A stretch of 42,464 nt of DNA from Lachnospiraceae bacterium. Lineage in GTDB: Bacteria > Bacillota > Clostridia > Lachnospirales > Lachnospiraceae. The notes beneath the pieces are model-generated. The model worked only from the letters and a program-made list of their open reading frames with translations. It did no database searches and was not told the DNA's origin. A program made the position numbers and the translations under genes. Shown one piece after another: positions 2,673 through 21,432 of the stretch (position 1 is the stretch's first letter; every line of letters begins with the position of its first letter). The DNA is taken from the NCBI GenBank assembly GCA_024403415.1, contig JAKSRY010000004.1, forward strand, positions 90,536 to 132,999, read 5' to 3'.

Positions 2673-2778
2673 TGACTATTTTAAAATGAAGGAAAATGAG
2701 AGATTTTGGGAGTCATTCAAGAGATATAGGGCTGAAATCTATGCACACATTGAACTATGATATTTTAATAAACCAAGA

Positions 2779-2800
2779 GTGAAATAAATTCTTATTTCAC
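2779..2800 (+). other. Perfect 9-bp stem-loop in front of the acyltransferase gene
   Basis: GTGAAATAA (2779-2787) and TTATTTCAC (2792-2800) pair perfectly around ATTC, just before the GAGGA ribosome binding site of the gene at 2818. There is no T-run, so it is not a standard terminator. Apart from this, 2673-2817 shows only a 24-codon open frame without a ribosome binding site. Confidence 0.4.
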
Positions 2801-2817
2801 GAGATGAGGAAATCGTA

Positions 2818-3927
2818 ATGAAAAGAGAAAGAGTTGAATATCTTGACTATGCAAAAGCATTAGCTATTATTTCAGTATTATTAAGCCATAGTGATTTTTC
2901 TTTTCTAGGAATGTGTAGCTTTTCGATGGCTGTATTTTTTATTTCATCGGGTTATACTTTCAATTCTGTAGAAGATAGTTTTGGCATATATTTTATAAAA
3001 AAAGTGAAACGCCTTATGGTCCCCTTTTGGATGATTATGACTGTAAATGCTCTGCTGGAGGTTGTTCGAGCTCGGTTTATCGGGTATGGAAATGTGCGAG
3101 TTGTGATTCCTGTTATTGTAAACCTAATCTATGGAAGTGGACTCTTTCCAAATTGCGGTAGCTTAGGTCAGATGCTTATGGATATTCCTCCGTTTACATA
3201 CAATTCGAGATACATGATAGATATTGTTATGCCAACGAATAGTAATTCATGGACCCTTCCGGCTTTGTTTTCGGGCTATATGATATATTATTTGTACCGG
3301 AAAACTGTGAAAAAAGCGAGTATTACTACAGATGTTGTGACTATTATGGTTATGCTGCTTCTAGCATCAATAGAAACAATTCCCGGAATTTTTCAATTAC
3401 CTTTTGGTATCGGAAGAGGGTTTATTTGTGTGGCATTTATGATTGCCGGCTTTTGGTTTAGAGAGCATAAGATTTTTGAAGATACAAAGGTGATTAGAAT
3501 CATCATTCGTATGACAATTTCCATTGTTGTATCTGTAGTTTCAGTGCTGCTTGGAAGCGAAGGAACCGGGTATGTTATTTCATATTATGGTCCATATGGA
3601 ATTTTGAGTGTGGCATTGACATTCCTTTGCGGTCTTTGTTCGGCCTACATAGTGATTATGATATGTCGCTTTATTTATTCATTTTCCATTAAGCCTGTGA
3701 ACAATTTGTTAGCTGTGATTGGAAGAAACACAATGGATTTATATCTTTGGCATTTCGCAGTATTTTTTGTCATAGATGTTATTTTTATACTGATATTCAA
3801 TCCAGTATTGAGTCCAAATATTTTCTTTGATGAATTGTTTAGTGAAGGATATCTTCTTTATAGGGTAATAAGACTTACTCTTACGATGATTTGTTTGACT
3901 TTGGTGGGAGAAAAAAAGGCTAAATAA
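2818..3927 (+). CDS. Acyltransferase 3 family membrane protein
   Basis: A 369-residue integral membrane protein with about ten hydrophobic segments. The N-terminus has the acyltransferase 3 signature: YLDYAKALAIISVLLSHSDF with the conserved His at residue 24, followed by AVFFISSGYTFN. Near the end, IGRNTMDLYLWHFAVF is the second typical block. Family members transfer acetyl or other acyl groups to sugars of surface polysaccharides or to small molecules at the membrane. The start has a GATGAGGAA ribosome binding site. The next gene follows after 16 bases and also encodes a large membrane protein, so the pair probably modifies or builds a surface glycan; the substrate cannot be read from the sequence. 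Confidence 0.85.
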   Translation: MKRERVEYLDYAKALAIISVLLSHSDFSFLGMCSFSMAVFFISSGYTFNSVEDSFGIYFIKKVKRLMVPFWMIMTVNALLEVVRARFIGYGNVRVVIPVIVNLIYGSGLFPNCGSLGQMLMDIPPFTYNSRYMIDIVMPTNSNSWTLPALFSGYMIYYLYRKTVKKASITTDVVTIMVMLLLASIETIPGIFQLPFGIGRGFICVAFMIAGFWFREHKIFEDTKVIRIIIRMTISIVVSVVSVLLGSEGTGYVISYYGPYGILSVALTFLCGLCSAYIVIMICRFIYSFSIKPVNNLLAVIGRNTMDLYLWHFAVFFVIDVIFILIFNPVLSPNIFFDELFSEGYLLYRVIRLTLTMICLTLVGEKKAK

Positions 3928-3943
3928 CGAGGGAGATTAGTAT

Positions 3944-5950: not shown

Positions 5951-5965
5951 CATTCAGAGGAAAAC

Positions 5966-6073
5966 ATGAAAAATGAAGAATTTGTAATGATTGCTGAAAC
6001 CACGAGTGTAATAGAAGCGCTGTCGTATGTGGTACTTAAGCCTTTTGGACTTTTAATTCCATCTATTGTATAA
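5966..6073 (+). CDS. Possible 35-residue small protein, or remnant of a gene
   Basis: A short frame starting MKNEEFVMIAETTSVIEALS and ending LLIPSIV lies 15 bases after the GT-C-like gene, with GAGG 4-5 bases before its ATG. It has a short hydrophobic end and no recognisable family. It may be a real small gene, a fragment of a decayed gene, or chance. Downstream, 6074-6144 holds only an AT-rich leader and the ribosome binding site of the next gene. Confidence 0.3.
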   Translation: MKNEEFVMIAETTSVIEALSYVVLKPFGLLIPSIV

Positions 6074-6144
6074 TCAACTATGTATGTTGTAGAGGTTTAG
6101 GTTTGTTTTTTATTACAGATTGAATTTAAACGAGGAGAAAGATT

Positions 6145-7110
6145 ATGTCACTGGTAGTTAAGAACTTAAAAAAGAAATATGGCGAAAAGACAGTTGTTGA
6201 AGACTTGTCATTTACTCTTGATAAACCCGGAGTATATGCCCTTCTTGGAACAAACGGAGCTGGTAAAACAACTTCAATTCGTATGATACTTGGAATGCTT
6301 GCAAAAGATGGTGGAGAAGTATTGTGGAAAGGACAGCCACTCGATGCAATGAAGATTAATGTAGGTTATCTTGCTGAAGAAAGAGGACTCTATCCTAAGT
6401 ATTCATTAATGGACCAGCTTTATTATTTTGCGAATCTTAAAGGTGTAAGTAAGGAAGTTGCAAAAGAGAGAATTAAGTACTGGGCTAAGAGACTTGAGGT
6501 TGAAGAATATCTTTATCCCGCACAGGTTAAAGGAAAGAGAGCTGAAAAGCCTAAGCTTGCCGATCAGTTGTCAAAAGGAAATCAGCAGAAAATACAGTTT
6601 ATGGCTGCTTTGATTTCAGATCCTGAGCTGTTAATTCTGGATGAGCCATTAAGTGGACTTGATCCTGTTAATACAGACTTATTTAAGGGTATTATCCATG
6701 AAGAAGTATCAAAAGGAAAATATCTCATCATGTCTTCACATCAGATGGAAGTAATAGAGGAATTCTGTGAAGATATAACAATTCTTAACAGAGGTAAGGC
6801 AGTTCTTCAGGGTAATCTTAATGAGATTAAGAAGAGCTATGGCCGTGTAAATATGTTTGTTAAGTGTGATAATGATTTTGACGATCTTATCAAAAAACAT
6901 GGAATGACAGTAAAGACTGATACTCCTGATGGAAAGCAGTTAAAGGTTGAAGGTGATGAGCAGGCTCAGAGATTCCTTAAGGATTTAATTGATAATAATA
7001 AGTCAGTAGTCAAGTTTGAATTAAGAGAGCCTTCTTTACATGAAATCTTTATTGAAAAAGCAGGTGCTTCGCATGAAGAAGCAGCAAAAGAAGGAGGACA
7101 GAATGAATAA
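6145..7110 (+). CDS. ABC transporter ATP-binding protein (NatA-type)
   Basis: A 321-residue cytoplasmic ATPase. It shows Walker A GTNGAGKTT, the signature LSKGNQQKIQF, Walker B LLILDEPLSGLDP and the H-loop SSHQMEVIEE, followed by a C-terminal extension of about 80 residues (DUF4162-like) typical of the NatA and drug-export ATPases that pair with ABC-2 permeases. The start has GAGGAGAAAG just upstream. The 3' end overlaps the next gene by 8 bases and two permease genes follow, so it most likely energises a heterodimeric exporter. The substrate (sodium, peptide or drug) is not determined by the sequence. Confidence 0.93.
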   Translation: MSLVVKNLKKKYGEKTVVEDLSFTLDKPGVYALLGTNGAGKTTSIRMILGMLAKDGGEVLWKGQPLDAMKINVGYLAEERGLYPKYSLMDQLYYFANLKGVSKEVAKERIKYWAKRLEVEEYLYPAQVKGKRAEKPKLADQLSKGNQQKIQFMAALISDPELLILDEPLSGLDPVNTDLFKGIIHEEVSKGKYLIMSSHQMEVIEEFCEDITILNRGKAVLQGNLNEIKKSYGRVNMFVKCDNDFDDLIKKHGMTVKTDTPDGKQLKVEGDEQAQRFLKDLIDNNKSVVKFELREPSLHEIFIEKAGASHEEAAKEGGQNE

Positions 7111-8485
7111 GAGGGATTTTGCGGGATGGAAGGAAGTCTTTAAGTTTTCTTTCCTTCAGGGAGTTAAATCCAAATCCTATATAGGAGTTTTATTAGTCCT
7201 TTCTCTTCTTGTTCTGTGTATTGTGCCTATTTTCGGTTGGATTCAGAACAAGGATAATGAGGTTTTGGATAGTACTTCAATTGAATCATTATATGTTTAT
7301 GATAATAGTGGATTTGATATTGATTATTCAAAATTTGCTGAAGATTCACGTTATTCAACAGTCAAAATTGACAAGAGTTCTTCGGTATCCTTTGAAGATC
7401 GTAAGAATGAATTAAAAGATAACGATACTGTAAAGGATGTACTGGTAGAGATTGAATACGATGTTTATAGTGGTTTTTCGATGACTTTTGTAAAGGCTGC
7501 CGGTGCAGATGTGGAGAGCAATGACTATGACACATTTACAGAGGATTTTAAGGTCTTCTTTGAGAGTGCCAAGAACCAGGCAATTGATATTTCTGATGAG
7601 CAGCTTATGTTTATCTCAAAGGCAGTAACTACTGAGATAAAATATGTGAATATCAATGAAAATGGTGATGTTTCCATAGATTCCGAGATTGAGAAAAAGG
7701 GAATCTCGATGGATGAATACGCTATTATGATGTGGGTGACGATAGTTACTATGCTTCTTATCAGTATGAGTGGTGGTCAGATAGCAAACTCTGTTGTTAC
7801 GGAAAAATCTACCAAAGTGGTTGAATATCTTATGATTAATGTAAGACCGCTTGCTTTGATTACAGGTAAGATTTTGTCATCATTATTGTTAGTTATAGTT
7901 CAGCTTTTGGCAATAGGTATTGCTTACTTTGCTGGATCATCAATTTCTGCATCAATGTTTGAAAGTGCACAGGCAGGTGAAAAAACCGGTGCCATTCAAA
8001 TGTTCTTTGACATGGTTTCGTCTATTTCAGCAGGTGAATTGTTGCTGGCTTTAATGCTCATACTCTTTGGAGTTCTTTTCTTCAGTATTGTTGCAGGACT
8101 TGCAGGAGCTTCTGTGAGTAAGCTTGAAGAGGTACAGGAAGGAATGAAGGTCTTCCAGCTGCTTACAATTGTGGGATGTTACTCAGCTATAATAATGGGA
8201 GTTATGCAGTCAACAAGCGGAGTAAGTGAAGAGGTCTTTACCGGACTTTGCATATTCCCCGTAACAGCTCCATTTGTAGTACCTACATATTTGCTGTTTG
8301 GTAAGGTTTCCGTACTGGTAGGAATTATCTCTCTTATAGTGCTGGCAATTGCTACCATGGCATTGTTTGTATTCACATCAAAGGTATATGAATCAATGAT
8401 TTTCTATAACGGAAAGGCACTTAAGGTAAAAGATATTCTTCAGATAGCAAAGAATAGAAGTATTGCAGGAAAGGGGGATAAATAA
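7103..8485 (+). CDS. ABC-2 type permease (NatB-like), first subunit
   Basis: A 460-residue membrane protein starting MNKRDFAGWKEVFKFSF. One N-terminal membrane helix (about 24-48) is followed by an extracytoplasmic domain of about 180 residues and then about five helices in the C-terminal half; this is the NatB/ABC-2 plan. ATG 7103 is chosen because AAGGAGG (7091-7097) sits 5 bases upstream and the coding frame overlaps the ATPase gene by 8 bases; the frame is open further upstream but that part is shared with the ATPase coding sequence. The segment SMSGGQIANSVVTEKSTKVVEYLM is written here in two parts, SMSGGQIANSVVTEK and STKVVEYLM, and is typical of these permeases. Confidence 0.88.
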   Translation: MNKRDFAGWKEVFKFSFLQGVKSKSYIGVLLVLSLLVLCIVPIFGWIQNKDNEVLDSTSIESLYVYDNSGFDIDYSKFAEDSRYSTVKIDKSSSVSFEDRKNELKDNDTVKDVLVEIEYDVYSGFSMTFVKAAGADVESNDYDTFTEDFKVFFESAKNQAIDISDEQLMFISKAVTTEIKYVNINENGDVSIDSEIEKKGISMDEYAIMMWVTIVTMLLISMSGGQIANSVVTEKSTKVVEYLMINVRPLALITGKILSSLLLVIVQLLAIGIAYFAGSSISASMFESAQAGEKTGAIQMFFDMVSSISAGELLLALMLILFGVLFFSIVAGLAGASVSKLEEVQEGMKVFQLLTIVGCYSAIIMGVMQSTSGVSEEVFTGLCIFPVTAPFVVPTYLLFGKVSVLVGIISLIVLAIATMALFVFTSKVYESMIFYNGKALKVKDILQIAKNRSIAGKGDK

Positions 8486-8487
8486 CT

Positions 8488-9807
8488 ATGAAGAGCGGTA
8501 ATTTTACAGGTTGGCGTAGTGTATTTACATTCACCTTTGCGCAGGATACCAAAGGAAGATATAAGAAGACAACAATAGGTGTCGGACTTGCATTTTTAAT
8601 AGTTGGTGCCTTAATCAGCATTATTATGGCACTTGTTCAAAAGAGTGATGGTGAAACAGTATCACCCATCAATACGGTATATGTGATTAATAACAGTGAC
8701 ATAAAGGATTTGTCGTTTGATTCATTAAGTAATCAGAATAAGGATAAATATCCATCAATATCCTTTGAAAACACCGATAAAGATGAAATAGCTGTGTCAA
8801 ATTCAATAAATGAAGATAATAACCTGATTCTTAAAATTGAAAATAAGGATGAAGGTTTTAATGTCAGTGCCATTATTCCCAACAACAGTTCTTTGAGTAA
8901 TGGCGATGTGAGTGATTTGCTGGATGATTTATCAAATTCGATTGAAGAAAGCAAACTGATTTCTTCCGGAATTTCTCCACAGATGCTTGCAATTGCAATG
9001 AGTCATGTAAGTGTAAACAAGATTAATGCATCAGATAAGCAGCAGAGCGTTGGCGAGGAAGTACTTAATGAGCTGTTACCGATGATAATATCGATGCTTA
9101 TGTATTTCGTTATTCTCATATATGGTATGGCAATGGGAAATTCCGTAAGTGTTGAAAAAACCTCTAAGCTTATGGAAATGGTTCTTACAATGACTAGGCC
9201 GGCAGCATTGATATTCGGTAAGGTATTTGCGCTTACATCTGCAGCAATTATTCAGGTTCTTGTATGGATTGGCCTTTTCTCCGGAGGATTTCTTTTAGGA
9301 GATTACGTAGCAAAGACAGCTATTTATCCTGAATATGAAAACGTTATTCTTGAAGTTTTAAGTCTGTTAAAGGGTCAGACCAACGGAGTGGCTTTCAGTG
9401 CGGGCGCATTTGTTCTTATGGGAGTAACCATAATCGTAGGTATTTTGTTCTACTTCCTTCTTGCGGCATTGGTTGGATCTTTTGCACAAAAGACAGAAGA
9501 AGTTCAAAGTTACATGGGCATCTTCACAATATTGAGTGTTGCAGGTTTCATGGCTGTTGTCTATCTTCCAATGTCAGATGGAAATAAATGGGATACCCTT
9601 TTAAGAGCTGTTCCTTTCACGAGTGCATATATTTTACCTGCGGATATTCTTCTTGGAAAGGTAACCCTTGTAAGTGGATTTGTGTACATGCTTATACTGT
9701 TTGCATTTGCTCTGGTTGCAGTATTCCTTGCTGGAAAAATATATATGAATCAGCTCTTCCACAGAGGTGAATCTTTATTAAGTATACTTAAGAGAAAGTC
9801 AAAATAA
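8488..9807 (+). CDS. ABC-2 type permease (NatB-like), second subunit
   Basis: A 439-residue membrane protein that looks like a diverged paralogue of its upstream neighbour. Both start with an FxGWrxVFxFxF motif, have one N-terminal helix, an extracytoplasmic domain rich in D, N and S, and a helix bundle beginning with a block of the type MGNSVSVEKTSKLMEMVL. Two unequal permeases with one ATPase suggest a heterodimeric exporter. It starts 2 bases after the first permease and its stop overlaps the start of map by one base (TAATG), so translation is probably coupled. Confidence 0.87.
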   Translation: MKSGNFTGWRSVFTFTFAQDTKGRYKKTTIGVGLAFLIVGALISIIMALVQKSDGETVSPINTVYVINNSDIKDLSFDSLSNQNKDKYPSISFENTDKDEIAVSNSINEDNNLILKIENKDEGFNVSAIIPNNSSLSNGDVSDLLDDLSNSIEESKLISSGISPQMLAIAMSHVSVNKINASDKQQSVGEEVLNELLPMIISMLMYFVILIYGMAMGNSVSVEKTSKLMEMVLTMTRPAALIFGKVFALTSAAIIQVLVWIGLFSGGFLLGDYVAKTAIYPEYENVILEVLSLLKGQTNGVAFSAGAFVLMGVTIIVGILFYFLLAALVGSFAQKTEEVQSYMGIFTILSVAGFMAVVYLPMSDGNKWDTLLRAVPFTSAYILPADILLGKVTLVSGFVYMLILFAFALVAVFLAGKIYMNQLFHRGESLLSILKRKSK

Positions 9808-10676
9808 TGAAAATCGAAAGAAATGATCCATGCTGGTGTGGATCAGGAAAAAAATATAAATCCTGTCACTTAAATCAGGATAATAAGGTTAAGCAATATG
9901 AACTTCAGGGCCATATGGTGCCCACCAATGACCTTCTTAAAACTCCAAAAGATATAGAGGGTATAAGGGAGAGTTCAAAGATAAATATAGCAGTTCTTGA
10001 TGCCGTAGGTAAAATGATAGGGCCGGGAGTAACTACGCAGGAGATAGATGATCTTGTATATAATCTTACTACCTCAATGGGAGGAATTCCGGCACCGCTT
10101 AATTATGATGGATTTCCAAAGAGTGTATGTACTTCCATAAATGAGGTGGTGTGTCATGGTATTCCGGATCCTGACAGAGTGCTTGAGGATGGAGATATCA
10201 TAAATGTAGATGTTTCTACGATATACAAGGGCTATTTCTCCGATTCTTCGAGAATGTATATGATAGGAAATGTCAGCGAGGAAAAGAAAAAACTTGTACA
10301 GGTTACAAAAGAATGCGTGGAACTTGGTCTTCAGATGGTCAAACCATGGAACTTCCTTGGAGATATGGCAGATGTAATCAACAGACATGCGAAGGAAAAT
10401 GGCTACAGTGTTGTAGTTGAAATCGGAGGCCATGGCATAGGTCTTGAGTTTCACGAGGAGCCTTTTGTAAGCTATGTTACCGAGCCGGGAACCGAGATGC
10501 TTATGGTGCCGGGGATGGTGTTTACGATTGAACCGATGGTAAACATGGGAACAAGTGATATATTTGTAGATGAAGAAGATGACTGGACAGTATATACAGA
10601 CGATGGTCTGCCTTCTGCTCAGTGGGAAATAACAGTTCTTGTTACCGAAGATGGGCACGAGGTACTGACTTATTAA
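9807..10676 (+). CDS. map: Methionine aminopeptidase type I with N-terminal SEC-C zinc motif
   Basis: A 289-residue enzyme that removes the initiator methionine from new proteins. Residues 9-21 carry a SEC-C-type zinc motif (CWCGSGKKYKSCH), an extension known in some Firmicutes and actinobacterial enzymes that may help ribosome contact. The pita-bread catalytic domain follows, with all five metal ligands identifiable: D135, D146, H209 (GGHGIG), E242 (FTIEPM) and E274 (AQWEITVLV), plus the substrate-side H117 (VVCHGIPDP). The start codon overlaps the stop of the ABC permease by one base, so it is the last gene of that operon. A housekeeping gene behind an exporter is unusual but carries no evident functional link. 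Confidence 0.95.
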   Translation: MKIERNDPCWCGSGKKYKSCHLNQDNKVKQYELQGHMVPTNDLLKTPKDIEGIRESSKINIAVLDAVGKMIGPGVTTQEIDDLVYNLTTSMGGIPAPLNYDGFPKSVCTSINEVVCHGIPDPDRVLEDGDIINVDVSTIYKGYFSDSSRMYMIGNVSEEKKKLVQVTKECVELGLQMVKPWNFLGDMADVINRHAKENGYSVVVEIGGHGIGLEFHEEPFVSYVTEPGTEMLMVPGMVFTIEPMVNMGTSDIFVDEEDDWTVYTDDGLPSAQWEITVLVTEDGHEVLTY

Positions 10677-12342: not shown

Positions 12343-15303
12343 ATGGGTGATAAATACGAAAATAAAGTTAAAATAGATGAAATTAAGTCTTTAATATCTA
12401 ATGGTGAATTTGAATCAGCAATTAATATTGCTGAGACTGTTGACTGGTCGACGATAAAGAATATTCCTACTCTTGGAATGATAAGTGATTTATATAAGAT
12501 GGCTCATATGTTTGAAAAGAGCCGTTCTATTTTATATATTGCGTACGACAAGCAAAAAAGTCGTCCTATCTTAAAATCTCTCTGTGAATTATCAATTGAA
12601 TTGGGTGATTTACTGAACGCGATTGAATACTATAAGGAATTCAGACAGATTGCGCCCAATGACTCTAATGTTTTTATCCTGAAATACAAAATATATAAGG
12701 CTCAAAATATAAGTATTGAAGAGCAGATTCAGGTTCTTGAAGAGTTAAAAGAGCATGATTTCATGCCAAAATGGTCATATGAGCTTGCTAATCTTTATAG
12801 AAAAGCAGGTATGGCTAATAAATGTGTTGAAGAATGTAATTATCTTATACTTTGGGCTGTTGATGGAAAGTATGCAATTAAGGCATATGAATTAAAGGCT
12901 CAGTATGAACCACTTAATGAAAGAGAAACATTTAACTATGAACTTCTTAGACAGGCTGGTGGTGAATTAAATATTCAGTATTCCTTAAAGGAAGAAGTTA
13001 AAAGAAAAGAGCAACCTAAGGAATTTTCGGTTGGTCAGGATATAAGCCCATATAATACGCAGAATCTTCAGGCTGTTGTGGCTGAGGGTGTTCAGGATTA
13101 TATGAATCCGACTATGCCGATAGACCTTCAGTCAGCTCCTGTTCCTATGACAAGAGAAGAGGCAATTGCTCTTGATGAGACAGCATTAAACAGTGAAGAA
13201 GATGATTCGGATTTAATGGTTACACAGATGTATAATCCGGTTATGCCTGAGGCTCCTGTGGGACAGGAACTTGAAGGTCAGCAGGAAATTCCTGTGACTC
13301 TTTCAGATACAGATGTTCTCGGAGATGCAACCACTGTTATGGCATCACAGATTCTTAGTGACAAAGTTCAGGAAGAGTATACACTTAATACAGATACAGA
13401 TGAGATTAAGCCTATTACGGGAGAACTGCCTGTCAGTCAGATAGCTGATGAAATTCCTCAGGATGCACAGGATGTTCAGAATGAATATGTTTATCAGACT
13501 ACCTATTTCAATCCGGGAACTCAGTATTCTACCAATAATCTGAGTAATACAGGTATTATTGAAACATTCCATAAGCCGTCTAATTTTGATGAGATCCTTT
13601 CACAGGGATCTGATGGACAGATAAGCTTTGTAGTTCCTGAGAATAATACTGTTGAAAGACAGATTACCGGTCAGATCAGCATTGACGATGTAATGCTTGA
13701 GTGGGAACGGAAGAAGAAAGAAAACGAAGCTAAACGAGTTGCTGAAATAAAAGACAGAATCAAGCAGCAGACAAGTTCATTGCTTGATGATTTTGATGAA
13801 TCAACAAAATCAGGATTACTTGCGCAGATTGAAAATGCGATGATTAATGCTGCATTGAAGGAAGAGCATGACAAGCTTGTTGCTTCAAGACCGAAGCAGA
13901 TTAAGGTTTCAGATATTGATAAGGCTGACGTTGCACAGAACAAGCCTGTACCTGTACAGCAGGAGACTCCGGTTGAGATAATTCCTGATGAAGAGGGAAT
14001 TGAGGAAATTGAAGAAATACTTGATTCTACAGCAGAGTTGGATAATATTGTAATTCCTGAAGAAATACTGACAGCTGATAAATCGAAGGCTGAAGAGGTT
14101 TCAAAGGAAGAAGTTGCGGCTGTTGAAGCACCTGTAATAGCAGAAGCACCGCAGGTGGCTGAAGAACCTGCAACAGAAGAAGCACCACAGGCAGTCGAGG
14201 AACCTGCAGCAGCAGAGGCACCACAGGCAGTCGAAGAACCTGCAGCAGCAGAGGCACCGCAGGCAGTTGAAGAACCTGCAGCAGAGGCACCGCAGGCAGT
14301 CGAAGAACCTGTAGCAGCAGAAGCACCGCAGGCAGTCGAAGAACCTGCAGCAGCAGAAGCACCACAGGCAGTCGAAGAACCTGCAGCAGCAGAGGCACCG
14401 CAGGCAGTTGAAGAACCTGCAGCAGTAGAAGCACCACAGGTAACAGTTGTCCCCGCGGAGGTTGAAGCACCGCAGACGGCTAATGGAACTAAGTCAGCCA
14501 ATCCACCTGTTAACGCACCTCAAAAGAGAAAATCTGAACCTTCTAACAGAACAAGAAGAATGAGCGATTCAGAAAAGGAACATTTTTCTGCTTTTGTTAA
14601 CCAGCGTGGAACAGAGAAACAGTTAATTAATATTCTTGATAATGTTACACTTGCACCATATACGGGTAATATTCTTGTTTCTGCAGAAGAAATTAGTGAA
14701 GTAACAACATTTTCAAAGTTACTGATACAGGAAATAGCATCAGCAGATTCCAACTTCACCGGAAAGGTTGCTCAGATTTCCGGCGAAAGTCTTAACAGAA
14801 AAGATATTAAAGAAGCTATTGAGAAGGTTAAGAATGGAGCTCTTATTATATCAGAGCCGGAACAGCTCAAGAAAAAGACAGTAGAGTCTCTTGTACAGGA
14901 ACTCAACCGTGACGATATCGGTGTTATTATTGTAATCGAGGGTTATGCAGACATTCTTGATATGCTTGTTGAGAAGAATGCAGGACTTGCAGAAGCCTTT
15001 AATCTCAGAATTGACCTGAAAGCTTTTGATGACAAGACTCTTGTTGAATATGGTAAGAGCTATGCATATGACAGAGAGTATGTCATAGATGAACTTGGTT
15101 CTCTTGCTCTTCATACAAGAATTGCAGAGATGCAGACTGCAGATCACGAGGTAACACTTGCAGAGATAGAAGAGTTGGTAGAAGATGCAATCTATTATGC
15201 CAATAAAAAGACACCGACACACTTCTTTGATATTTTGTTTGGCAAGAGATATGACGAGCAGGATATGATAGTTTTACGTGAAAAGGATTTCATGCATTAT
15301 TAA
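12343..15303 (+). CDS. TPR protein with EAPQAVEEP repeat tract and degenerate AAA+-like C-terminus
   Basis: I do not know a named family for this 986-residue protein. Residues 1-220 form helical TPR-like pairs (KVKIDEIKSLISNGEFESAI and following). Residues 225-600 are an acidic, low-complexity linker with a Lys/Arg/Glu coiled-coil stretch (about 445-525). Residues 601-712 are tandem EAPQAVEEPAAA units. Residues 735-986 look like an AAA+ domain of the SpoVK/CbxX type with lost nucleotide motifs: where Walker A is expected there is GNILVSAEEISEVTTF (from 775), and at the Walker B position GALIISEPEQL (832-842); the later IIVIEGYADILDMLVEKNAG and GLAEAFNLRIDL match the post-Walker-B region and the lid. 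No signal peptide or membrane helix is seen, so it is probably cytoplasmic. The gene lies 18 bases upstream of glgB without a terminator between them. Confidence 0.75.
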   Translation: MGDKYENKVKIDEIKSLISNGEFESAINIAETVDWSTIKNIPTLGMISDLYKMAHMFEKSRSILYIAYDKQKSRPILKSLCELSIELGDLLNAIEYYKEFRQIAPNDSNVFILKYKIYKAQNISIEEQIQVLEELKEHDFMPKWSYELANLYRKAGMANKCVEECNYLILWAVDGKYAIKAYELKAQYEPLNERETFNYELLRQAGGELNIQYSLKEEVKRKEQPKEFSVGQDISPYNTQNLQAVVAEGVQDYMNPTMPIDLQSAPVPMTREEAIALDETALNSEEDDSDLMVTQMYNPVMPEAPVGQELEGQQEIPVTLSDTDVLGDATTVMASQILSDKVQEEYTLNTDTDEIKPITGELPVSQIADEIPQDAQDVQNEYVYQTTYFNPGTQYSTNNLSNTGIIETFHKPSNFDEILSQGSDGQISFVVPENNTVERQITGQISIDDVMLEWERKKKENEAKRVAEIKDRIKQQTSSLLDDFDESTKSGLLAQIENAMINAALKEEHDKLVASRPKQIKVSDIDKADVAQNKPVPVQQETPVEIIPDEEGIEEIEEILDSTAELDNIVIPEEILTADKSKAEEVSKEEVAAVEAPVIAEAPQVAEEPATEEAPQAVEEPAAAEAPQAVEEPAAAEAPQAVEEPAAEAPQAVEEPVAAEAPQAVEEPAAAEAPQAVEEPAAAEAPQAVEEPAAVEAPQVTVVPAEVEAPQTANGTKSANPPVNAPQKRKSEPSNRTRRMSDSEKEHFSAFVNQRGTEKQLINILDNVTLAPYTGNILVSAEEISEVTTFSKLLIQEIASADSNFTGKVAQISGESLNRKDIKEAIEKVKNGALIISEPEQLKKKTVESLVQELNRDDIGVIIVIEGYADILDMLVEKNAGLAEAFNLRIDLKAFDDKTLVEYGKSYAYDREYVIDELGSLALHTRIAEMQTADHEVTLAEIEELVEDAIYYANKKTPTHFFDILFGKRYDEQDMIVLREKDFMHY
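14143..14480 (+). repeat. Tandem 33-36-bp coding repeat (EAPQAVEEP units)
   Basis: Seven units carry exact EAPQAVEEP, with spacers of two or three residues (AA, AAA or AAV), flanked by diverged units (EAPQVAEEPATE before, EAPQVTVVPAEV and EAPQT after). At the DNA level the units differ mainly by synonymous changes (GTC/GTT, CCA/CCG, GAG/GAA). One unit is a residue shorter. The tract is GC-richer than its surroundings and could change length by slippage or recombination. Confidence 0.95.
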
Positions 15304-15321: not shown

Positions 15322-17379
15322 ATGGCAGTAAAAACTACAACAGCTAAAAGCGAAAAAAAGCCTGCAGCAAATAGTAATAGTAAAGCAAAAGCAGCTCCAA
15401 AGGCTGCAGCGCCTAAGAAAGCGGCCTCAAAGACCACAACTTCAAAGGCAGCACCAAAAAAAGAAGCTGTTACTGTTAAGAGCAGAGATAAGGTATTTAT
15501 TTCTGAAGCAGACCAGTATCTTTTTGGACAGGGAATGCACTACGAAATATACGAAAAGCTCGGAGCACATCTTTCATGTGAGAATGGCGTTGATGGTGTT
15601 TATTTTGGTGTATGGGCACCAAATGCCAAGGAAGTATATGTTTTCGGTGATTTCAACGGATGGGACGAAAAGGCTAATAAGCTTAATAAACTGGGTCCCG
15701 GAGGAATTCACTCTCTCTTTGTTCCAAATGCAAAAGAAGGACAGTTTTATAAATATATAATTCATACAGCAGAAGGAGAGGTTCTTTACAAATCAGATCC
15801 TTTTGGCAACTCACAGGAACTTCGTCCCGGAACTGCTTCAAAGATTGTAGACTTGAATAACTATGTGTGGTCTGATTCTGAATGGGTTGAAGCCCGTAAG
15901 AATAAGGATCCAAATCATGAACCCCTGGCTATATATGAATGTCATATAGGATCATGGATGAGACATCCACTTCCTGAAGAGAAGGGATTTTATAATTATC
16001 GTGAATTTGCAGACAGAATAATTGATTATCTTAAGGAAATGAAATATACCCACATAGAGCTTATGGGTATTGCAGAATATCCTTTTGATGGAAGCTGGGG
16101 ATATCAGGTTACCGGATATTATGCTCCAACATCAAGATACGGAACACCTCAGGATTTCATGTATCTTATTGATAAGCTTCATGAAAATGGTATAGGGGTT
16201 ATCCTTGACTGGGTACCTGCACACTTTGCAACAGATGCTCATGGATTAGGAAAGTTCGATGGTCAGTGTATTTTTGAACATCCGGACCCAAGAAAGGGAG
16301 AACATCCTGACTGGGGTACAAAGATATTCAACTATGAAAAGACTGAGGTTAAGAACTTCCTTATTGCAAATGTGTTATTTATGATAAGAAAGTTCCATAT
16401 TGACGGAATCAGAGTAGATGCAGTTGCATCAATGCTGTACCTTGATTATGGTAAAAAGGATGGACAGTGGTGTCCAAATAAGTACGGCGGAAATGAAAAT
16501 CTTGATGCAATTGAGTTCTTTAAGCATATGAATTCTGTTGTTCATGGTTATTATCCGGGATTTTTGACTATAGCAGAAGAGTCTACTGCCTGGCCTAAGA
16601 TTACAGGTGATGTTAATGACAATGGTCTTGGGTTCAACTTTAAGTGGAATATGGGATGGATGCATGACTTCTGTGAGTACATGAAGCTCGATCCATTCTT
16701 CAGAAAAGATAATCATTATGGCATGACTTTTGCAATGAGCTATAATGAATCCGAAAATTATATTCTTCCTCTTTCACATGATGAGGTTGTTCATCTTAAG
16801 TGTTCAATGGTAGAAAAAATGCCCGGTTATAAGGTTGATAAGTATGCTAACTTAAGATGCGGATATGCATTTATGTTTGGACATTGCGGAAAGAAGCTTC
16901 TGTTCATGGGACAGGATTTTGGTCAGGAGAGAGAGTGGTCAGAAGAAAGAGAACTTGACTGGTTCCTTCTTGCGGAGAATCTCAATAAGGGTCTTCACGA
17001 CTATACAAAAGAACTTCTTGAAATATACAGAAAATATAAGTGTATGTATGAGTTTGATAACTGTTGGAAGGGCTTTGAGTGGCTCAACTGTGATGATAAA
17101 GACAGAAGCACCTACAGTTTCGTACGTCGCTCATCAGACGGAAAGAACTCATTAATGTTCGTTATAAATATGACACCTATGAGATGGGACGGATATAAGC
17201 TTGGAGTACCTACAGATAAGAAGATGACATTACTTCTTAATTCTGACGATCCCAAGTTTGCAGGAAATGGTGAGAAAGTTAGGAAAACACTTACTCCTGT
17301 TGAAGAGAACTGTGATTACAAGGATTATGCAGTTACTCTTGATATTCCTCCTTTCACAGCTTTGGTTTATAAATTTTAA
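15322..17379 (+). CDS. glgB: 1,4-alpha-glucan (glycogen) branching enzyme with Lys/Ala-rich N-terminal tail
   Basis: A 685-residue GH13/CBM48 enzyme that makes alpha-1,6 branches in glycogen. Residues 1-53 are a Lys/Ala/Thr/Pro-rich basic tail. A CBM48 domain follows (GVYFGVWAPNAKEVYVFGDF at about 92-111, then NGW), then the catalytic barrel. The nucleophile is D366 (DGIRVDAVASMLY), the acid/base E419 (TIAEEST) and the third acidic residue D487 (LPLSHDEVVH). The C-terminal beta domain ends TLDIPPFTALVYKF. The start has GGGGGA upstream and lies 18 bases after the TPR/repeat protein gene, so the two are probably co-transcribed. The catalytic part has normal length; only the tail is extra. Confidence 0.95.
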   Translation: MAVKTTTAKSEKKPAANSNSKAKAAPKAAAPKKAASKTTTSKAAPKKEAVTVKSRDKVFISEADQYLFGQGMHYEIYEKLGAHLSCENGVDGVYFGVWAPNAKEVYVFGDFNGWDEKANKLNKLGPGGIHSLFVPNAKEGQFYKYIIHTAEGEVLYKSDPFGNSQELRPGTASKIVDLNNYVWSDSEWVEARKNKDPNHEPLAIYECHIGSWMRHPLPEEKGFYNYREFADRIIDYLKEMKYTHIELMGIAEYPFDGSWGYQVTGYYAPTSRYGTPQDFMYLIDKLHENGIGVILDWVPAHFATDAHGLGKFDGQCIFEHPDPRKGEHPDWGTKIFNYEKTEVKNFLIANVLFMIRKFHIDGIRVDAVASMLYLDYGKKDGQWCPNKYGGNENLDAIEFFKHMNSVVHGYYPGFLTIAEESTAWPKITGDVNDNGLGFNFKWNMGWMHDFCEYMKLDPFFRKDNHYGMTFAMSYNESENYILPLSHDEVVHLKCSMVEKMPGYKVDKYANLRCGYAFMFGHCGKKLLFMGQDFGQEREWSEERELDWFLLAENLNKGLHDYTKELLEIYRKYKCMYEFDNCWKGFEWLNCDDKDRSTYSFVRRSSDGKNSLMFVINMTPMRWDGYKLGVPTDKKMTLLLNSDDPKFAGNGEKVRKTLTPVEENCDYKDYAVTLDIPPFTALVYKF

Positions 17380-17422: not shown

Positions 17423-17452
17423 AGGGTGAATGCAAAAGCATTCGCCCTTTTT
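17423..17452 (+). terminator. Rho-independent terminator after glgB
   Basis: AGGGTGAATGC (17423-17433) and GCATTCGCCCT (17438-17448) pair with one T-G wobble around AAAA and run into five Ts. It separates the glgB unit from the flagellar genes. Confidence 0.93.
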
Positions 17453-17475
17453 GATTGTTATGGTGGGTGGAACTT

Positions 17476-20310
17476 ATGAATATAAGATTTACTGATGTAG
17501 ACAGGATGTCTGCAAATACATATACAAATGTCAATGGGGCTGCAAATTCAAATATTAATTCTCCCCGAGTTGGAGGAGATAATTATTCATTAGACATTTC
17601 TTCAGTAGTTACGGATAACAAAGCTTACAAAGGTCAGGGACGGACCGTTAAGGAAGTGATGATGGATGCATCAGCCATGGATATTGATGCACAGCGTGAC
17701 TATTTGACAGTAATGTCTAATTGTGTTTCTGCAGAAGATCTTGCAAAGATGCAGGCAGAAGGGTTTGTTCCCGGTAAAACAGAAATTGATGATGCAGTTT
17801 CGATAATTGACCATATTAAAGCAGCAGTTGCCAAAGGTGGTACCAATGTAATTGGTTACACAGATAATATTTCTGATGAAGCTCTTGTTGCAATAACAGG
17901 AAGTCAGACTTACGCCAATATGCTTAAGGAACAGTTTAGTGAGAACGATATTCCTTTAACAGAGGAAAATGTTAAGGCTGTTGACGAAGCATATGATGAA
18001 CTTAAAAAGGTTAAGCCACTTACAGATGCAGGTGTCAAATATCTTATCGAAAATGATATGCCACCATCTGTTGAAAATCTTTATAAAGCAACCTATGCAG
18101 CAGGAAATAGTGCCAACTTCCAGGGAAGAGGCTATTATGCCGTAGATCAGACCGGAAGTTATTATGCAAAAAAACCTGCAAACGTTGATATTGAAGCTTT
18201 AATGCCTCAGATTAAGGATATTATTTCAGAGGCAGGATATGAAATAAATGATAAGACTGTTTCCGAAGCCACTTTTCTTATTGAAAAGGGTATTCCGCTC
18301 ACAACAGATTCGTTAAGAAGATATGAAAGTCTTGAAGCTGTTGACACTGACATGAGCTATAAGGAATTCGTAAACCATGCCGTATGGGCAATCGGAGATG
18401 GTGTAGACGTTAAAAAAGCTGATTTGTCCCTGCAGCATTCTCTCAGAGAAGAAGCTTATTCAATATATGAAGAAGTAAATACCGAGGGAAGCATTAAAGG
18501 AAGACGAGTACTTGAAGAGGTTAGACTTTCAATGACTGTGGAAGCAAACCTTAAGCTTTTGAGATCGGGCTTTTCAATAGATACCGCACCGATGGAAGAC
18601 CTGATTAAAAATCTGAAAGAGATTGAAAAAGAATATGCGATCAATCTTACTCACGATGAGGATGAGATTGAGGCTATTCAAAAGAAGAATATATTTACCG
18701 AAGCAAATGACTTAATCGGACTTATCGGTTCAGCTCCAATAAGCATAATCAATGATTTTGAAGCAGCGGATACTCTTAGAATAACAGCAGACAAAGCTCA
18801 AAATCTGAAGAATGCATATGACAGAGCAAGCAGAGAATACGAAACACTGATGACAGCTCCGAGAGCAGACCTTGGCGATAGTATTTCGAAGGCATTCCGA
18901 AATGTTGATGATATTCTGACAGGAATGGATATGGTTCTTTCGGAAGAAAACCAAAGAGCCGTAAGAATTCTTGGTTACAACGAAATAGCTGTTACTCCTG
19001 AAAATCTTAATGCAGTTAAGGAAAAAGACAGGCTCTTAACTTCGACTCTTGATAAAATGACACCGGCCAGGGTGCTTGGAATGATAAGAGATAATATCAA
19101 TCCTCTGAATATGAGTGTTGAAGAGCTCGATAAATATTTAAGAGATCAGGATGATACAGAAGAGGAAATGCTTTCATACAGCAAATTCCTTTACAAGCTG
19201 GAGAAGAACAAGGATATCACCGAAGACGAGGCTGAGGCTTATATTGGAATATACAGACTGATTAATAAGATTGAAAAGGCCGATCACAGCTTCATAGGTG
19301 CCATAGAAGAACTTGGAGCCAATTTCAATTTTGACAATATCCTTAAAGCCATGAGAACACGCAGGAAATCCATGGATTACACCGTAGATGACAACTTTGG
19401 CGGAGTGGATGTAGTTGATAAAGGAATTAAGTCGATTTCATCTCAGATTGAAAAAGGCTTCATGAATGATATAGCTGACTTAAAGAATTTCATAACCAAT
19501 CTTGGTAATAAATATGTGGATAAAGAAATAGCTTCTGAAGAAGCAGAAGAGTTTAGAGAAACACTTCAGACTGAGACAGCGGTTCTTGAGAGACTTAAAG
19601 AGATGAATATGCCTGTAACGGCTGAAAATATTGCGTCAATGGAAGAAGCGATGAATGATCCGGCAGCAGTATTCAAAAAGCTTAGACAGCTTGGTTTCAG
19701 GAATCAAAAGTCAGTAAAACTTGAAAATAAAGAAAGTGCAAAACAAAGCTTCAGGGAAATGACAGGAAGCATTAAGGATTTCCTTAAAGATAAGGTATTC
19801 GGAGAAGAAAGTATTCAGGATTTCAAATCAAAAGATATCAAAGAAATGTATGACATGTATGTACATGCTGATTTTCTTCAAAGAGAAGCTGAAGAAGAGA
19901 ATTATGAAATTCCTGTTGATCTGAATGACGGTCAGGCTGTTATTAACCTAAGAATTATTCATAAGGGAGAAACACCATCAGCTGCTATATCCTTTGAAAC
20001 TGAAGCAATTGGAGTTGTTACTGCGAAATTCATGGTTAATGAAAAAGGAATTAACGGATATTTAAGCAGTTCAACAGCAGAAGGTGTAAATCTTTTTAAG
20101 AAAAATGATGAAGCAATCAGAAGTTCGCTCTCTTCAAATGGTATTAAGGTTGATGACCTCAGAATGATACAGTCTTCTGATGCAAATATTAATTCCTTCA
20201 TCAAAAATATAACAAAAGGAAGAGAAGAAGATAAGGGAATTATTTCAACAGAAAATCTTTATAAGGCTTCAAAAGCAATAATAGAAAGCGTAACAGAAAT
20301 ATTAAAGTAG
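17476..20310 (+). CDS. FliK-like flagellar protein with recurring helical motif
   Basis: A 944-residue hydrophilic protein, mostly helical, without signal peptide or membrane segments. The last 130 residues resemble the FliK C-terminal (hook-length control) domain: IPVDLNDGQAVINLRIIH, then EAIGVVTAKFMVNEKGINGYL, then EAIRSSLSSNGIKVDDLRMI; these fit the family pattern of a beta region followed by a helix and LxxxGixvxxlxv. Upstream, a short motif of the form (N/G)-(I/M)-P-(L/V)-T-x-E-N-(V/L/I) recurs at about residues 157, 193, 271, 502 and 710. ATG 17476 is preferred over an upstream ATG because GGGTGG lies 5 bases before it. The gene is 15 bases upstream of flagellin, which supports a flagellar role. 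The FliK link is an inference from a weak match. Confidence 0.6.
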   Translation: MNIRFTDVDRMSANTYTNVNGAANSNINSPRVGGDNYSLDISSVVTDNKAYKGQGRTVKEVMMDASAMDIDAQRDYLTVMSNCVSAEDLAKMQAEGFVPGKTEIDDAVSIIDHIKAAVAKGGTNVIGYTDNISDEALVAITGSQTYANMLKEQFSENDIPLTEENVKAVDEAYDELKKVKPLTDAGVKYLIENDMPPSVENLYKATYAAGNSANFQGRGYYAVDQTGSYYAKKPANVDIEALMPQIKDIISEAGYEINDKTVSEATFLIEKGIPLTTDSLRRYESLEAVDTDMSYKEFVNHAVWAIGDGVDVKKADLSLQHSLREEAYSIYEEVNTEGSIKGRRVLEEVRLSMTVEANLKLLRSGFSIDTAPMEDLIKNLKEIEKEYAINLTHDEDEIEAIQKKNIFTEANDLIGLIGSAPISIINDFEAADTLRITADKAQNLKNAYDRASREYETLMTAPRADLGDSISKAFRNVDDILTGMDMVLSEENQRAVRILGYNEIAVTPENLNAVKEKDRLLTSTLDKMTPARVLGMIRDNINPLNMSVEELDKYLRDQDDTEEEMLSYSKFLYKLEKNKDITEDEAEAYIGIYRLINKIEKADHSFIGAIEELGANFNFDNILKAMRTRRKSMDYTVDDNFGGVDVVDKGIKSISSQIEKGFMNDIADLKNFITNLGNKYVDKEIASEEAEEFRETLQTETAVLERLKEMNMPVTAENIASMEEAMNDPAAVFKKLRQLGFRNQKSVKLENKESAKQSFREMTGSIKDFLKDKVFGEESIQDFKSKDIKEMYDMYVHADFLQREAEEENYEIPVDLNDGQAVINLRIIHKGETPSAAISFETEAIGVVTAKFMVNEKGINGYLSSSTAEGVNLFKKNDEAIRSSLSSNGIKVDDLRMIQSSDANINSFIKNITKGREEDKGIISTENLYKASKAIIESVTEILK

Positions 20311-20325
20311 GAAGGATTTGATGAT

Positions 20326-21432
20326 ATGTATATAAGTTTTAATGCATCTGCCGTAATAGCAAATAATTCATTAAATAAAACAGATAATAAATTAAGAGAG
20401 TCTCTTGCAAGACTGTCTTCAGGACTTAAGGTTGTAAATCCAAAAGATAATCCTTCCGGACTTGCAATGGCAAAAAGAATGAATGCTCAGTTAAAGGGTC
20501 TTGAGCAGGCAAAAGATAATTCAAATGATGGTATTTCAATTATTGAGATTGCTGACGGAACAATGTCTGAGATGGCGGATATGCTTCAGAGAATGAACGA
20601 GCTTGCAGTTAAGGCCAGCAACGGAACAATGTCTGACAAAGATCGTGAGATGGTTGATACCGAGTTGCAGCAGCTTAAGAAGGAGATTACAAGAATCGGT
20701 AAGGAAACTTCCTTTAACGGACAGCCATTGCTTGATGGATCCTTTGATCTTAAAGGTTATACATCAGATCTTGATATGAAGGTAGCATATTACAGTGATG
20801 ACGTAGTATACGGAAAATATACACTTTCAAGTCTTAATGTAACATATGATGCAGACGGACTTGTTGACAGTGCTTCGGCATCAGGACTTACAGATGAGGA
20901 TGGCAATTCCATCACAATAGACGAGACAACATTCTCAGGCAATACTGTTACTCTTAAAAACAGTAAGGGATTTGAACTTAAGTTTGAAGTACATGACACA
21001 ACATCTTTTTCAAATACTACTGTTGATATTACAGGAATTGGTTCAATGGATATGCAGATTGGTGCCAATGAAGGTCAGCAGCTCGCGATAAGAATTCCAA
21101 AGATTTCTCTTGAAAATATGGAAATAGCCAATATCAGTGCGGCTACGCAGGATGATGCAAGAGAAGCAATCGATGGAATCCAGAGTGCAATGAGATATCT
21201 GTCAAAGGCAAGAGCAAATCTTGGTGCATACCAGAACAGACTTGAGCATACAGTAAGTTCAATTGATATAAGTAATGAAAATATGACAGCTGCTTATTCA
21301 AGAATTATGGATGTAGATATGGCAGAGGAAATGACTGAATATACAACTCTTCAGGTACTTTCACAGGCAAGCACATCGATGCTGGCACAGGCTAACGAGC
21401 GCCCTTCGCAGGTATTACAGTTACTTCAGTAG
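20326..21432 (+). CDS. Flagellin
   Basis: A 368-residue filament subunit. The N-terminal D0/D1 region (residues 1-140) has the classic SLARLSSGLKVVNPKDNPSG, then LAMAKRMNAQLKGLEQAKDN, followed by IEIADGTMSEMADMLQRMNE. The C-terminal region (about 270-368) has AIDGIQSAMRYLSKARANLG, then AYQNRLEHT, and ends ERPSQVLQLLQ. The variable middle (145-270) is short and beta-rich. The start is ATG 20326, 9 bases after GGAAGGA; another ATG at 20321 is in a different frame. The protein begins MYISFNASAVIA instead of the common MVINHN. FliS follows after 13 bases, and the FliK-like gene precedes it by 15 bases. Confidence 0.97.
   Translation: MYISFNASAVIANNSLNKTDNKLRESLARLSSGLKVVNPKDNPSGLAMAKRMNAQLKGLEQAKDNSNDGISIIEIADGTMSEMADMLQRMNELAVKASNGTMSDKDREMVDTELQQLKKEITRIGKETSFNGQPLLDGSFDLKGYTSDLDMKVAYYSDDVVYGKYTLSSLNVTYDADGLVDSASASGLTDEDGNSITIDETTFSGNTVTLKNSKGFELKFEVHDTTSFSNTTVDITGIGSMDMQIGANEGQQLAIRIPKISLENMEIANISAATQDDAREAIDGIQSAMRYLSKARANLGAYQNRLEHTVSSIDISNENMTAAYSRIMDVDMAEEMTEYTTLQVLSQASTSMLAQANERPSQVLQLLQ

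Follow-up and report, generated by a model that had tools for sequence, protein, structure and literature searches.

In a 42,464-nucleotide stretch of a Lachnospiraceae genome (hereafter the window), a gene directly upstream of glgB, which encodes the 1,4-alpha-glucan branching enzyme, specifies a TPR protein whose C-terminal domain follows the order of an AAA+ ATPase without the usual nucleotide-binding motifs. The locus raises the question of whether this domain is a genuine descendant of an AAA+ machine, when its motifs were lost, and what such a protein might do beside a branching enzyme. The relevant features are listed in Table 1.

Domain architecture and assignment to an AAA+ clade

The frame opens with an ATG and runs without interruption to its stop codon. 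The initial annotation had proposed N-terminal TPRs, a long linker and about 250 C-terminal residues in the order of a SpoVK/CbxX-type AAA+ domain, and all three parts are borne out. A Pfam TPR scan of the window copy alone returned no match at 0.001; a whole-sequence profile matched a PDB entry for an engineered TPR protein (2.3e-13), and TPR_19 was found in 16 of the 24 relatives scanned with the Pfam TPR models. The linker is acidic and includes EAPQAVEEPAA-type units encoded by a 36-base tandem repeat, together with a conserved block found in 62 of 111 well-aligned relatives (32/33 forms lacking a P-loop and 30/78 others). The C-terminal domain had been placed at 14600..15303; the domain itself stands, with a start about 55 bases earlier.

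Table 1. Features of the locus, in window coordinates
Feature	Position	Strand	Basis
TPR / acidic linker / pseudo-AAA+ protein, 986 aa	12343..15303	+	ORF list
N-terminal TPR region, ~residues 1-215	12343..12987	+	PDB profile search, Pfam TPR models
Conserved linker block, residues 419-455, LSQGSDGQISFVVPE ... ITGQISIDDVMLEWE	13597..13707	+	Occurrence among 111 relatives
36-base tandem repeat, 9.1 copies	14118..14440	+	Tandem Repeats Finder
Pseudo-AAA+ domain (SpoVK/CbbX/EccA clade), residues 735-986; coordinates take in the C-terminal tail and the stop codon	14545..15303	+	NCBIfam, PDB profile search, low-confidence model
Former Walker A, residues 775-791, GNILVSAEEISEVTTFS	14665..14715	+	Alignment to canonical domains and to 78 relatives with a P-loop
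Former Walker B, residues 832-842, GALIISEPEQL	14836..14868	+	Alignment
Sensor-1 to Arg-finger region, residues 861-885; finger position Ala885	14923..14997	+	Alignment
Conserved C-terminal tail, residues 968-983, KRYDEQDMIVLREKDF	15244..15291	+	Comparison of 33 P-loop-less members
glgB, 1,4-alpha-glucan branching enzyme, 685 aa; 18 bases separate it from the TPR/pseudo-AAA+ gene ahead of it	15322..17379	+	TIGR01515, Pfam
VFISEAD motif, GlgB residues 58-64, with a Lys/Ala-rich tail ahead of it	15493..15513	+	Motif comparison of GlgB partners
Terminator-like hairpin behind glgB, closing the two-gene unit	17423..17448	+	11-pair stem, then TTTT

Against NCBIfam, the last 252 residues match SpoVK (2.5e-10), EccA (1.9e-9) and CbbX (7.6e-6), with alignments that begin at residue 839–844, where Walker B lies or has just ended. 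All three matches stay far under the curated cut-offs, with 39.8 bits against 422.95 for SpoVK (TIGR02881) and 36.6 bits against 466.65 for EccA (TIGR03922). A profile of 31 member domains matches CbbX (7.6e-20) and EccA1 (3.2e-12) in the PDB, followed by RuvB (0.022) and FtsH (0.5). The structure model, calculated from three input sequences with a pLDDT of 58.6, has the AAA+ strand order with CbbX as its first fold match; at this low confidence its fold matches only corroborate the profile result, and both searches, which the initial annotation had suggested, have CbbX on top. The domain belongs by descent to the SpoVK/CbbX/EccA (CbxX/CfxQ) clade, as profile and fold matches rank that clade above other AAA+ proteins. 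A fold other than AAA+ would suit the weak model and the Pfam scan of the window copy, in which nothing rose above cut-off, and is almost certainly wrong, being contradicted by the CbbX profile match and by the continuous gradation in sequence that links canonical domains to P-loop-less ones.

Loss of nucleotide-binding and hydrolysis motifs

Nine canonical SpoVK-like domains from related genomes served as reference rows; out of 20 loci, these were the ones in which GxxxxGK[ST] was found on the + strand, which fixes their Walker A count by construction. Two of the nine (L194 and L200) derive from one gene. Opposite their G-x4-GKT the window copy reads GNILVSAEEISEVTTF, with AEEISEVT at the Walker A itself, and GALIISEPEQL occupies the position of the canonical FIDEAY stretch. 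The absence of Walker A and the altered Walker B reported in the initial annotation are therefore confirmed by alignment with both canonical and P-loop-bearing relatives. The P-loop Lys/Arg-Ser/Thr pair is kept in 78 of the 111 relatives, 71 of which have the full GxxxxGK[ST]; it is gone in 33, the window copy included, none of which has GxxxxGK[ST]. A member counts as P-loop-less when [KR][ST] is missing at the Lys position; in one member (L146) a Lys stands there without a P-loop.

The losses extend to the residues of hydrolysis. The Walker B Asp is present in 9/9 canonical rows, in 1/52 P-loop-bearing members beside glgB, in 0/26 P-loop-bearing members elsewhere and in 0/33 P-loop-less members, the window copy having SE in place of DE. 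At the Arg-finger position, Arg occurs in 9/9 canonical rows and in 0/33, 0/52 (Lys in 49) and 1/26 members of the three classes, and is thus missing in 110/111. By eye, in 13 alignment rows, the sensor-2 Arg is also absent, VTLAE-type residues standing opposite the canonical FANGR/FANAR. Gaps of 7 and 9 residues relative to both CbbX and the canonical rows mark two missing loop segments, which we take to be pore loop 1 and the loop that follows Walker B. A GY in sensor 1, a named feature of SpoVK/CbbX/EccA ATPases (PMC10659427), is found in 9/9 canonical rows and, within the set of 111, in the window copy alone (residues 867–868). An Asn four residues ahead of the first Arg finger is a further feature of the clade (PMC10659427). 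N879 of the window copy may correspond to it (Asn in 17/33, 35/52, 9/26 and 9/9 canonical), the Arg of that description not being matchable with certainty.

Members with a P-loop are also without the Walker B Asp and the Arg finger, without the GY and the two loop segments of canonical relatives, and have mostly lost the catalytic Glu. Since most hydrolysis residues are already missing from them, hydrolysis was, judging by the alignment, probably lost before nucleotide binding. Overall, we regard the C-terminal domain as a pseudo-AAA+ domain with high confidence; it may serve as a binding platform.

Distribution, phylogeny and selection

Of 61 genomes searched, 35 have homologues, and all 35 belong to the same taxonomic family, which contributed 37 genomes to the search. 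A broader search gave matches in 378/397 family genomes, an upper bound that probably includes weak matches to SpoVK-like paralogues. With the window domain as query, two weak matches came from plasmids, one annotated as an AAA family ATPase (7e-4) and one in an unannotated record (1e-3); the viral contigs searched gave none.

In the domain tree, the 33 P-loop-less members form one clade (support 0.94–1.0), and the P-loop is also missing in all five further species that were searched in the genus. The P-loop was lost on the branch leading to this clade, after most hydrolysis residues. Four more divergent members (L043, L054, L064 and L066), initially excluded by a 150-bit cut, have no GxxxxGK[ST] anywhere and represent two or more lineages besides this clade; once they are restored to the tree, a single loss in the whole family is rejected. 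The P-loop thus appears, on the tree, to have been lost at least three times, in a sample whose 80 extra genomes were hand-picked among the matches listed, down to E 2e-86, so that divergent members are under-sampled. The initial annotation had considered that relatives with an intact Walker A, together with a sequencing error here, would undo its proposal. Such relatives do exist (the 78 noted above), but an error or frameshift is excluded because the loss is common to the genus and to the whole clade of 33.

A decaying gene, its motifs lost by drift, would explain why residues at the former P-loop vary freely within the clade, and is hardly credible given the rest of the evidence. All 33 frames run uninterrupted (747–1079 aa, two cut by contig ends), and the domain is under purifying selection, with omega of 0.020–0.125 among pairs with finite dS, which is near saturation (pS 0.50–0.70; dS is saturated in three further P-loop-less pairs). 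Eight tail residues (R969, Y970, D974, M975, L978, E980, D982 and F983) are identical in 33/33 P-loop-less members, which also contradicts drift, and so are the lid residues E912, Q931 and H935.

Linkage to glgB and possible function

The product of the downstream gene scores over the TIGR01515 cut-off and has CBM_48, Alpha-amylase and Alpha-amylase_C domains, and no terminator-like hairpin is listed on the + strand between the two genes. The pairing with glgB seen in the initial annotation is upheld and conserved: glgB lies directly downstream of 33/33 P-loop-less genes and beside 85/111 relatives, and another alpha-glucan enzyme gene lies within 1 kb in nine more (94/111; raw counts). Because neighbourhoods are inherited, the 33 cases, all from one clade, cannot be counted as independent of one another; on the domain tree, glgB linkage requires seven Fitch steps. 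Co-occurrence of the two genes carries no weight, since GlgB is nearly universal in the family (matches in 391/397 genomes, 376 over cut-off).

A VFISEAD-like motif near the GlgB N-terminus is present in 33/33 partners of P-loop-less forms, in 0/52 partners of P-loop forms and in 0/9 readable unlinked GlgB paralogues; it may be a plain clade marker. The basic tail ahead of it is long in a few genomes only. Charge complementarity between this tail and the acidic linker was considered and not used, the correlation over 85 pairs being too weak (rho -0.27, p 0.012, without phylogenetic correction). By eye, ISEAD in the GlgB N-terminus resembles LREKD in the tail of the TPR/AAA protein, a likeness that was not used as evidence.

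A domain kept under selection right beside glgB suggests a former machine that now holds or regulates the branching enzyme. Our main reading, to which we give a probability of about one half on the grounds of gene linkage and the co-occurring motif change, is that the protein is a nucleotide-independent TPR/pseudo-AAA+ adaptor acting directly for GlgB or an alpha-glucan enzyme. It would be a non-catalytic descendant of a dedicated, single-target chaperone of the SpoVK/CbbX/EccA clade: the pseudo-AAA+ domain and tail would bind GlgB, the TPR superhelix would bind a second partner or another copy, and the branching enzyme would be positioned or regulated without ATP, dispensing with the nucleotide switch of its ancestors. 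A fuller history is more tentative, in which a Rubisco-activase-type chaperone became an ATP-free GlgB adaptor stepwise, by loss of catalytic residues and then, at least three times, of the P-loop, with VFISEAD co-adapted.

The protein could instead be a general TPR scaffold, with glgB and ksgA merely old neighbours. ksgA is indeed a steady neighbour (upstream in 17/33 P-loop-less loci and downstream in 8/26 glgB-free loci; raw counts), so part of the conservation may belong to the locus and not to a functional pair, and in several glgB-free loci the neighbours are unrelated, namely genes for an ABC transporter, MatE, TetR or a sensor kinase; pyrophosphatase (2), transketolase and aldolase genes also occur beside such loci. 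The alpha-glucan enzyme genes near 94/111 members and the seven steps in glgB linkage nevertheless make this rather unlikely.

Inactive subunits occur in other AAA+ assemblies, such as the delta subunit of the clamp loader, and the protein might analogously join a canonical SpoVK-like protein in a mixed ring, as its inactive, regulatory subunit. Two separate SpoVK-like matches exist in the window's genome (G000, contigs C23 and C9), and interface residues could persist while catalytic ones disappear. SpoVK-like matches at 1e-20 occur, however, in just 13/41 genomes searched, five genomes with the TPR/AAA gene (G003, G006, G008, G009 and G011) have none at that threshold, and with the finger Arg missing in 110/111 members, completion of a neighbouring subunit's site is unlikely; we consider such a ring improbable. 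There is a similarly slim chance that the old site or lid binds a nucleotide or sugar phosphate through non-canonical residues, making the domain a ligand-sensing switch on GlgB. The C-terminal helical bundle of CbbX holds a binding site for RuBP (PMC10659427), and the three invariant lid residues would fit such a site, but they are equally explicable as packing or interface.

Relation to known AAA+ proteins and implications

According to PMC10659427, characterised members of the clade each have a narrow target: CbbX serves one metabolic enzyme, Rubisco, and SpoVK is a chaperone activating one glycan-building enzyme, MurG. CbbX, the red-type Rubisco activase (PDB 3zuh, 3syk, 3syl), is the best match in sequence and fold; unlike it, the protein here lacks the P-loop, Walker B acid, Arg finger and pore-loop segments, adds TPRs, a long acidic linker and a conserved tail, and has glgB as its neighbour. 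SpoVK requires its Walker motifs and Arg finger (PMC10659427). Identity with SpoVK is rejected, the protein falling under the TIGR02881 cut-off and separate SpoVK-like proteins being present in the same genome. EccA (PDB 9lur), which acts in type VII secretion, shares the combination of a TPR region and a CbxX-type AAA+ domain (PMC10659427), whereas the protein here scores under the EccA cut-off and is encoded beside glgB. The suggestion in the initial annotation that the architecture may be undescribed therefore fails for the combination as such, and stands for the dead domain, acidic linker block, tail and tie to a glycogen gene, for which no description was found.

We know of no EccA with motif losses of this kind. 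The AAA+ fold is kept without working nucleotide motifs in the clamp-loader delta subunit, dynein AAA5/6 and FtsHi, which share a ring or a tandem array with active modules; here, nearly all members of a family lack most hydrolysis residues. Our literature search found no paper linking a TPR or AAA+ protein to glgB: the terms AAA, TPR and tetratricopeptide do not occur in the available text of PMC10395257 and PMC11046441, nor do glycogen and branching in that of PMC10659427, the operons of its Figure 3A aside.

In gut commensals, the storage of glycogen has been put forward as a trait of niche adaptation (PMC10395257). If the adaptor reading is true, the protein would represent a class of regulatory partner of bacterial glycogen metabolism of which no description was found. 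The family preserves stages between motor and pseudo-enzyme (canonical, hydrolysis residues gone, P-loop gone), so that extant proteins offer a test of the order in which these parts were lost. The locus points to an unstudied partner of GlgB, and suggests a further sugar-related client of this AAA+ clade, served without any need for ATP.

The TPR/AAA gene and glgB

The TPR/AAA gene and glgB look like one unit, because no terminator-like hairpin is found between them on the + strand among the hairpins listed, and a hairpin followed by TTTT lies beyond glgB. The operon with glgB that had been proposed in the initial annotation is supported by this arrangement and by the close spacing of the two genes. 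A GGGGGA stretch precedes the glgB ATG. The gene located 94 bases upstream of the TPR/AAA ORF, named by sight, is presumably glpK-like. The protein with a Cys-rich N-terminal extension is presumably methionine aminopeptidase-like, with the extension taken to be SEC-C-like. The pair of DUF6240 protein and flagellin also follows glgB in six other loci (L033, L034, L036, L037, L040, and L065).

Features of the window (window coordinates, except where residues are stated)
Feature	Position	Strand	Remarks
Predicted protein	9807-10676		Cys-rich N-terminal extension
TPR/AAA ORF	12343-15303	+	986 aa
Acidic linker	residues 216 to ~734		net charge -78 over 509 residues
Antisense frame	13671-14501	-	276 aa, covers tandem repeat
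glgB	15322-17379	+	18 bases 3′ of TPR/AAA ORF
Basic tail of GlgB	15322-15492		Lys/Ala-rich, ~57 residues, in the window's genus
Hairpin	17423-17448		11-pair, then TTTT; beyond glgB
DUF6240 protein	17455-20310		PF19753, 1.1e-107, two stretches; directly 5′ of flagellin
Flagellin	20326-21432		

TPRs occupy residues 1 to ~215, as placed by profiles of relatives; the window copy alone gives a weak TPR score only. In the PDB, a 24-member profile matched an engineered TPR protein (full-sequence value 2.3e-13, with no single stretch within the 0.01 limit), and Pfam TPR models match up to 16 of the 24 members scanned. Both the TPRs and the long linker originally claimed are thus borne out. The linker contains a 36-base tandem repeat, and the antisense frame is most likely an artefact of repeat composition. 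The single conserved linker block, DGQISxVVPE...ITGQxSIxDILxEWE, is present in 62 of 111 relatives (32/33 P-loop-less and 30/78 others).

Loss of the P-loop

The pseudo-AAA+ domain takes up residues 735-986 of the protein, and the window copy reached no cut-off in Pfam or NCBIfam. Among 118 loci examined, the gene was present in 115 and scored above 150 bits in 111; the canonical reference comprised SpoVK-like domains of related genomes, in nine rows out of 20 loci, picked for having a P-loop. The Walker A Lys position carries K/R then S/T in 78 of the 111 aligned members (the full GxxxxGK[ST] in 71) and lacks them in the window copy and 32 clade relatives, confirming the claimed loss of nucleotide-binding motifs. 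Relatives with an intact Walker A, which the initial annotation had coupled with a sequencing error as an alternative, do exist (the 71 members), but an error in the window copy is ruled out, since the loss is common to a 33-member clade.

Compared with the nine canonical rows, the Walker B Asp is replaced by Glu in 50/52 P-loop-bearing proteins linked to glgB, 25/26 other P-loop-bearing proteins, and 20/33 P-loop-less proteins. The catalytic Glu is mostly gone (Glu in 0/52, 6/26, and 7/33, respectively), and Arg is nearly absent from the Arg-finger position (0/52, 1/26, and 0/33). GY is found only in the window copy among the 111 family members. Gaps at the expected pore loop 1 and post-Walker-B loop occur in P-loop-bearing and P-loop-less members alike. 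Because P-loop-bearing members also lack most hydrolysis residues and the pore-loop segments, hydrolysis and threading were likely lost first, and nucleotide binding later.

The 33 P-loop-less members are monophyletic in the domain tree (support 0.97; 0.94 with the Walker A columns removed; 0.993 with canonical rows added). Outside the clade in the canonical-row tree are three P-loop-bearing members (split supports 0.98 and 0.845), and their position polarises the change as a loss. The clade is also recovered, with support 1.0 and a single Fitch step, in a tree of linked GlgBs (84 sequences, including 32 from the P-loop-less clade; one GlgB fragment left out). Four divergent members below the 150-bit cut (L043, L054, L064, and L066) are likewise without a P-loop, and none has glgB beside it (0/4). 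As these fall on at least two lineages other than the P-loop-less clade, the P-loop has been lost on three or more occasions. In L054 and L064, long insertions separate the core from the lid.

The AAA domain of the P-loop-less clade is evidently still selected, with slow protein-level change; omega was 0.020, 0.033, 0.055, 0.051, and 0.125 in the five pairs with finite, though almost saturated, dS; three further pairs had reached saturation.

Distribution and gene neighbourhood

The protein was found in 35 of 61 genomes searched, comprising 35/37 of the window's taxonomic family and 0/24 from other families of the same order. A phylum-wide sample gave 4/249 positives, all in the window's family and one of them weak. 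The domain is identical to the window's in a contig of a horse-faeces Lachnospiraceae MAG (L031) and 42% identical in Lachnospiraceae bacterium Pal332_bin6 (L032), which makes Lachnospiraceae the most probable family.

Conservation beside glgB, a check suggested in the initial annotation, extends to 85/111 relatives with glgB directly downstream: 33/33 P-loop-less (gaps of -7 to 91 bases) and 52/78 P-loop-bearing (-10 to 441 bases). Mere co-occurrence of the two proteins is uninformative, because 391 of 397 family genomes have a GlgB match. Of the 26 glgB-free loci, the sequence of one (L051) stops 219 bases past the gene, and nine have a same-strand gene for glycogen phosphorylase (6) or an alpha-amylase (3) no more than 1 kb away. 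With 20 neighbours scanned, others adjoin a gene for phosphoglucose isomerase, transketolase, aldolase or pyrophosphatase, and yet others one for a transporter, regulator or surface protein. In five glgB-free loci (L044, at 2770-7224 of that locus, with similar genes in L049, L050, L052, and L059), a protein of ~1,470-1,490 aa is encoded upstream of the TPR/AAA gene; the one copy scanned had no Pfam match at 1e-5. A reading confined to GlgB is countered by ksgA, which lies upstream in 17/33 P-loop-less loci and downstream in 8/26 glgB-free loci. All these neighbour counts are raw.

A putative adaptor of GlgB

The motif [VI]xI[ST][EDQA][ATDE]D is found at the GlgB N-terminus in 33/33 partners of P-loop-less proteins (VFISEAD in 20/33, VFIS in 29/33) and in 0/52 partners of P-loop-bearing ones. 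Within 15 clade genomes, it occurs in 15/15 linked GlgBs and 0/9 unlinked paralogues with readable frames; six further loci yielded no readable frame with the pattern used. The motif is compatible with co-adaptation to a P-loop-less partner, but represents one event on one branch. The unlinked paralogues (L202-L209 and L226) are longer, with frames of 777-859 aa and additional residues ahead of the CBM48-like part at the N-terminus. The GlgB stretch before the core has a net charge of +11 to +15 in the window's genus; L132 (+14) and L150 (+9) have the basic tail too. In the TPR/AAA protein, eight residues of the C-terminal tail KRYDxxDMIxLxEKDF are identical in 33/33 P-loop-less members, and the four specified positions of LxExDF are invariant in 52/52 glgB-linked P-loop members as well; given this invariance, the tail is likely a contact site.

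The characterised SpoVK/CbbX/EccA proteins are portrayed as dedicated chaperones, each with a narrow target: Rubisco for CbbX, MurG for SpoVK, and secretion substrates for EccA (PMC10659427). The window protein retains their fold and single-neighbour style of gene linkage and, like EccA, has a TPR region. Unlike these chaperones, it is not expected from its sequence to bind or hydrolyse ATP. AAA+ proteins with TPRs are a known kind, so the suggestion that the architecture may be undescribed holds only in part; the apparently new part is a catalytically dead branch tied to glycogen genes, of which no description was found in the literature searched, including passages from a pair of glycogen reviews (PMC10395257 and PMC11046441). 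By analogy with the CbbX lid, which senses RuBP, a ligand-sensing lid is possible. The most likely role of the window protein is that of an ATP-independent adaptor of GlgB, in which the pseudo-AAA+ domain and tail would sit on GlgB, while the TPRs would hold a second partner or glycogen-associated proteins.
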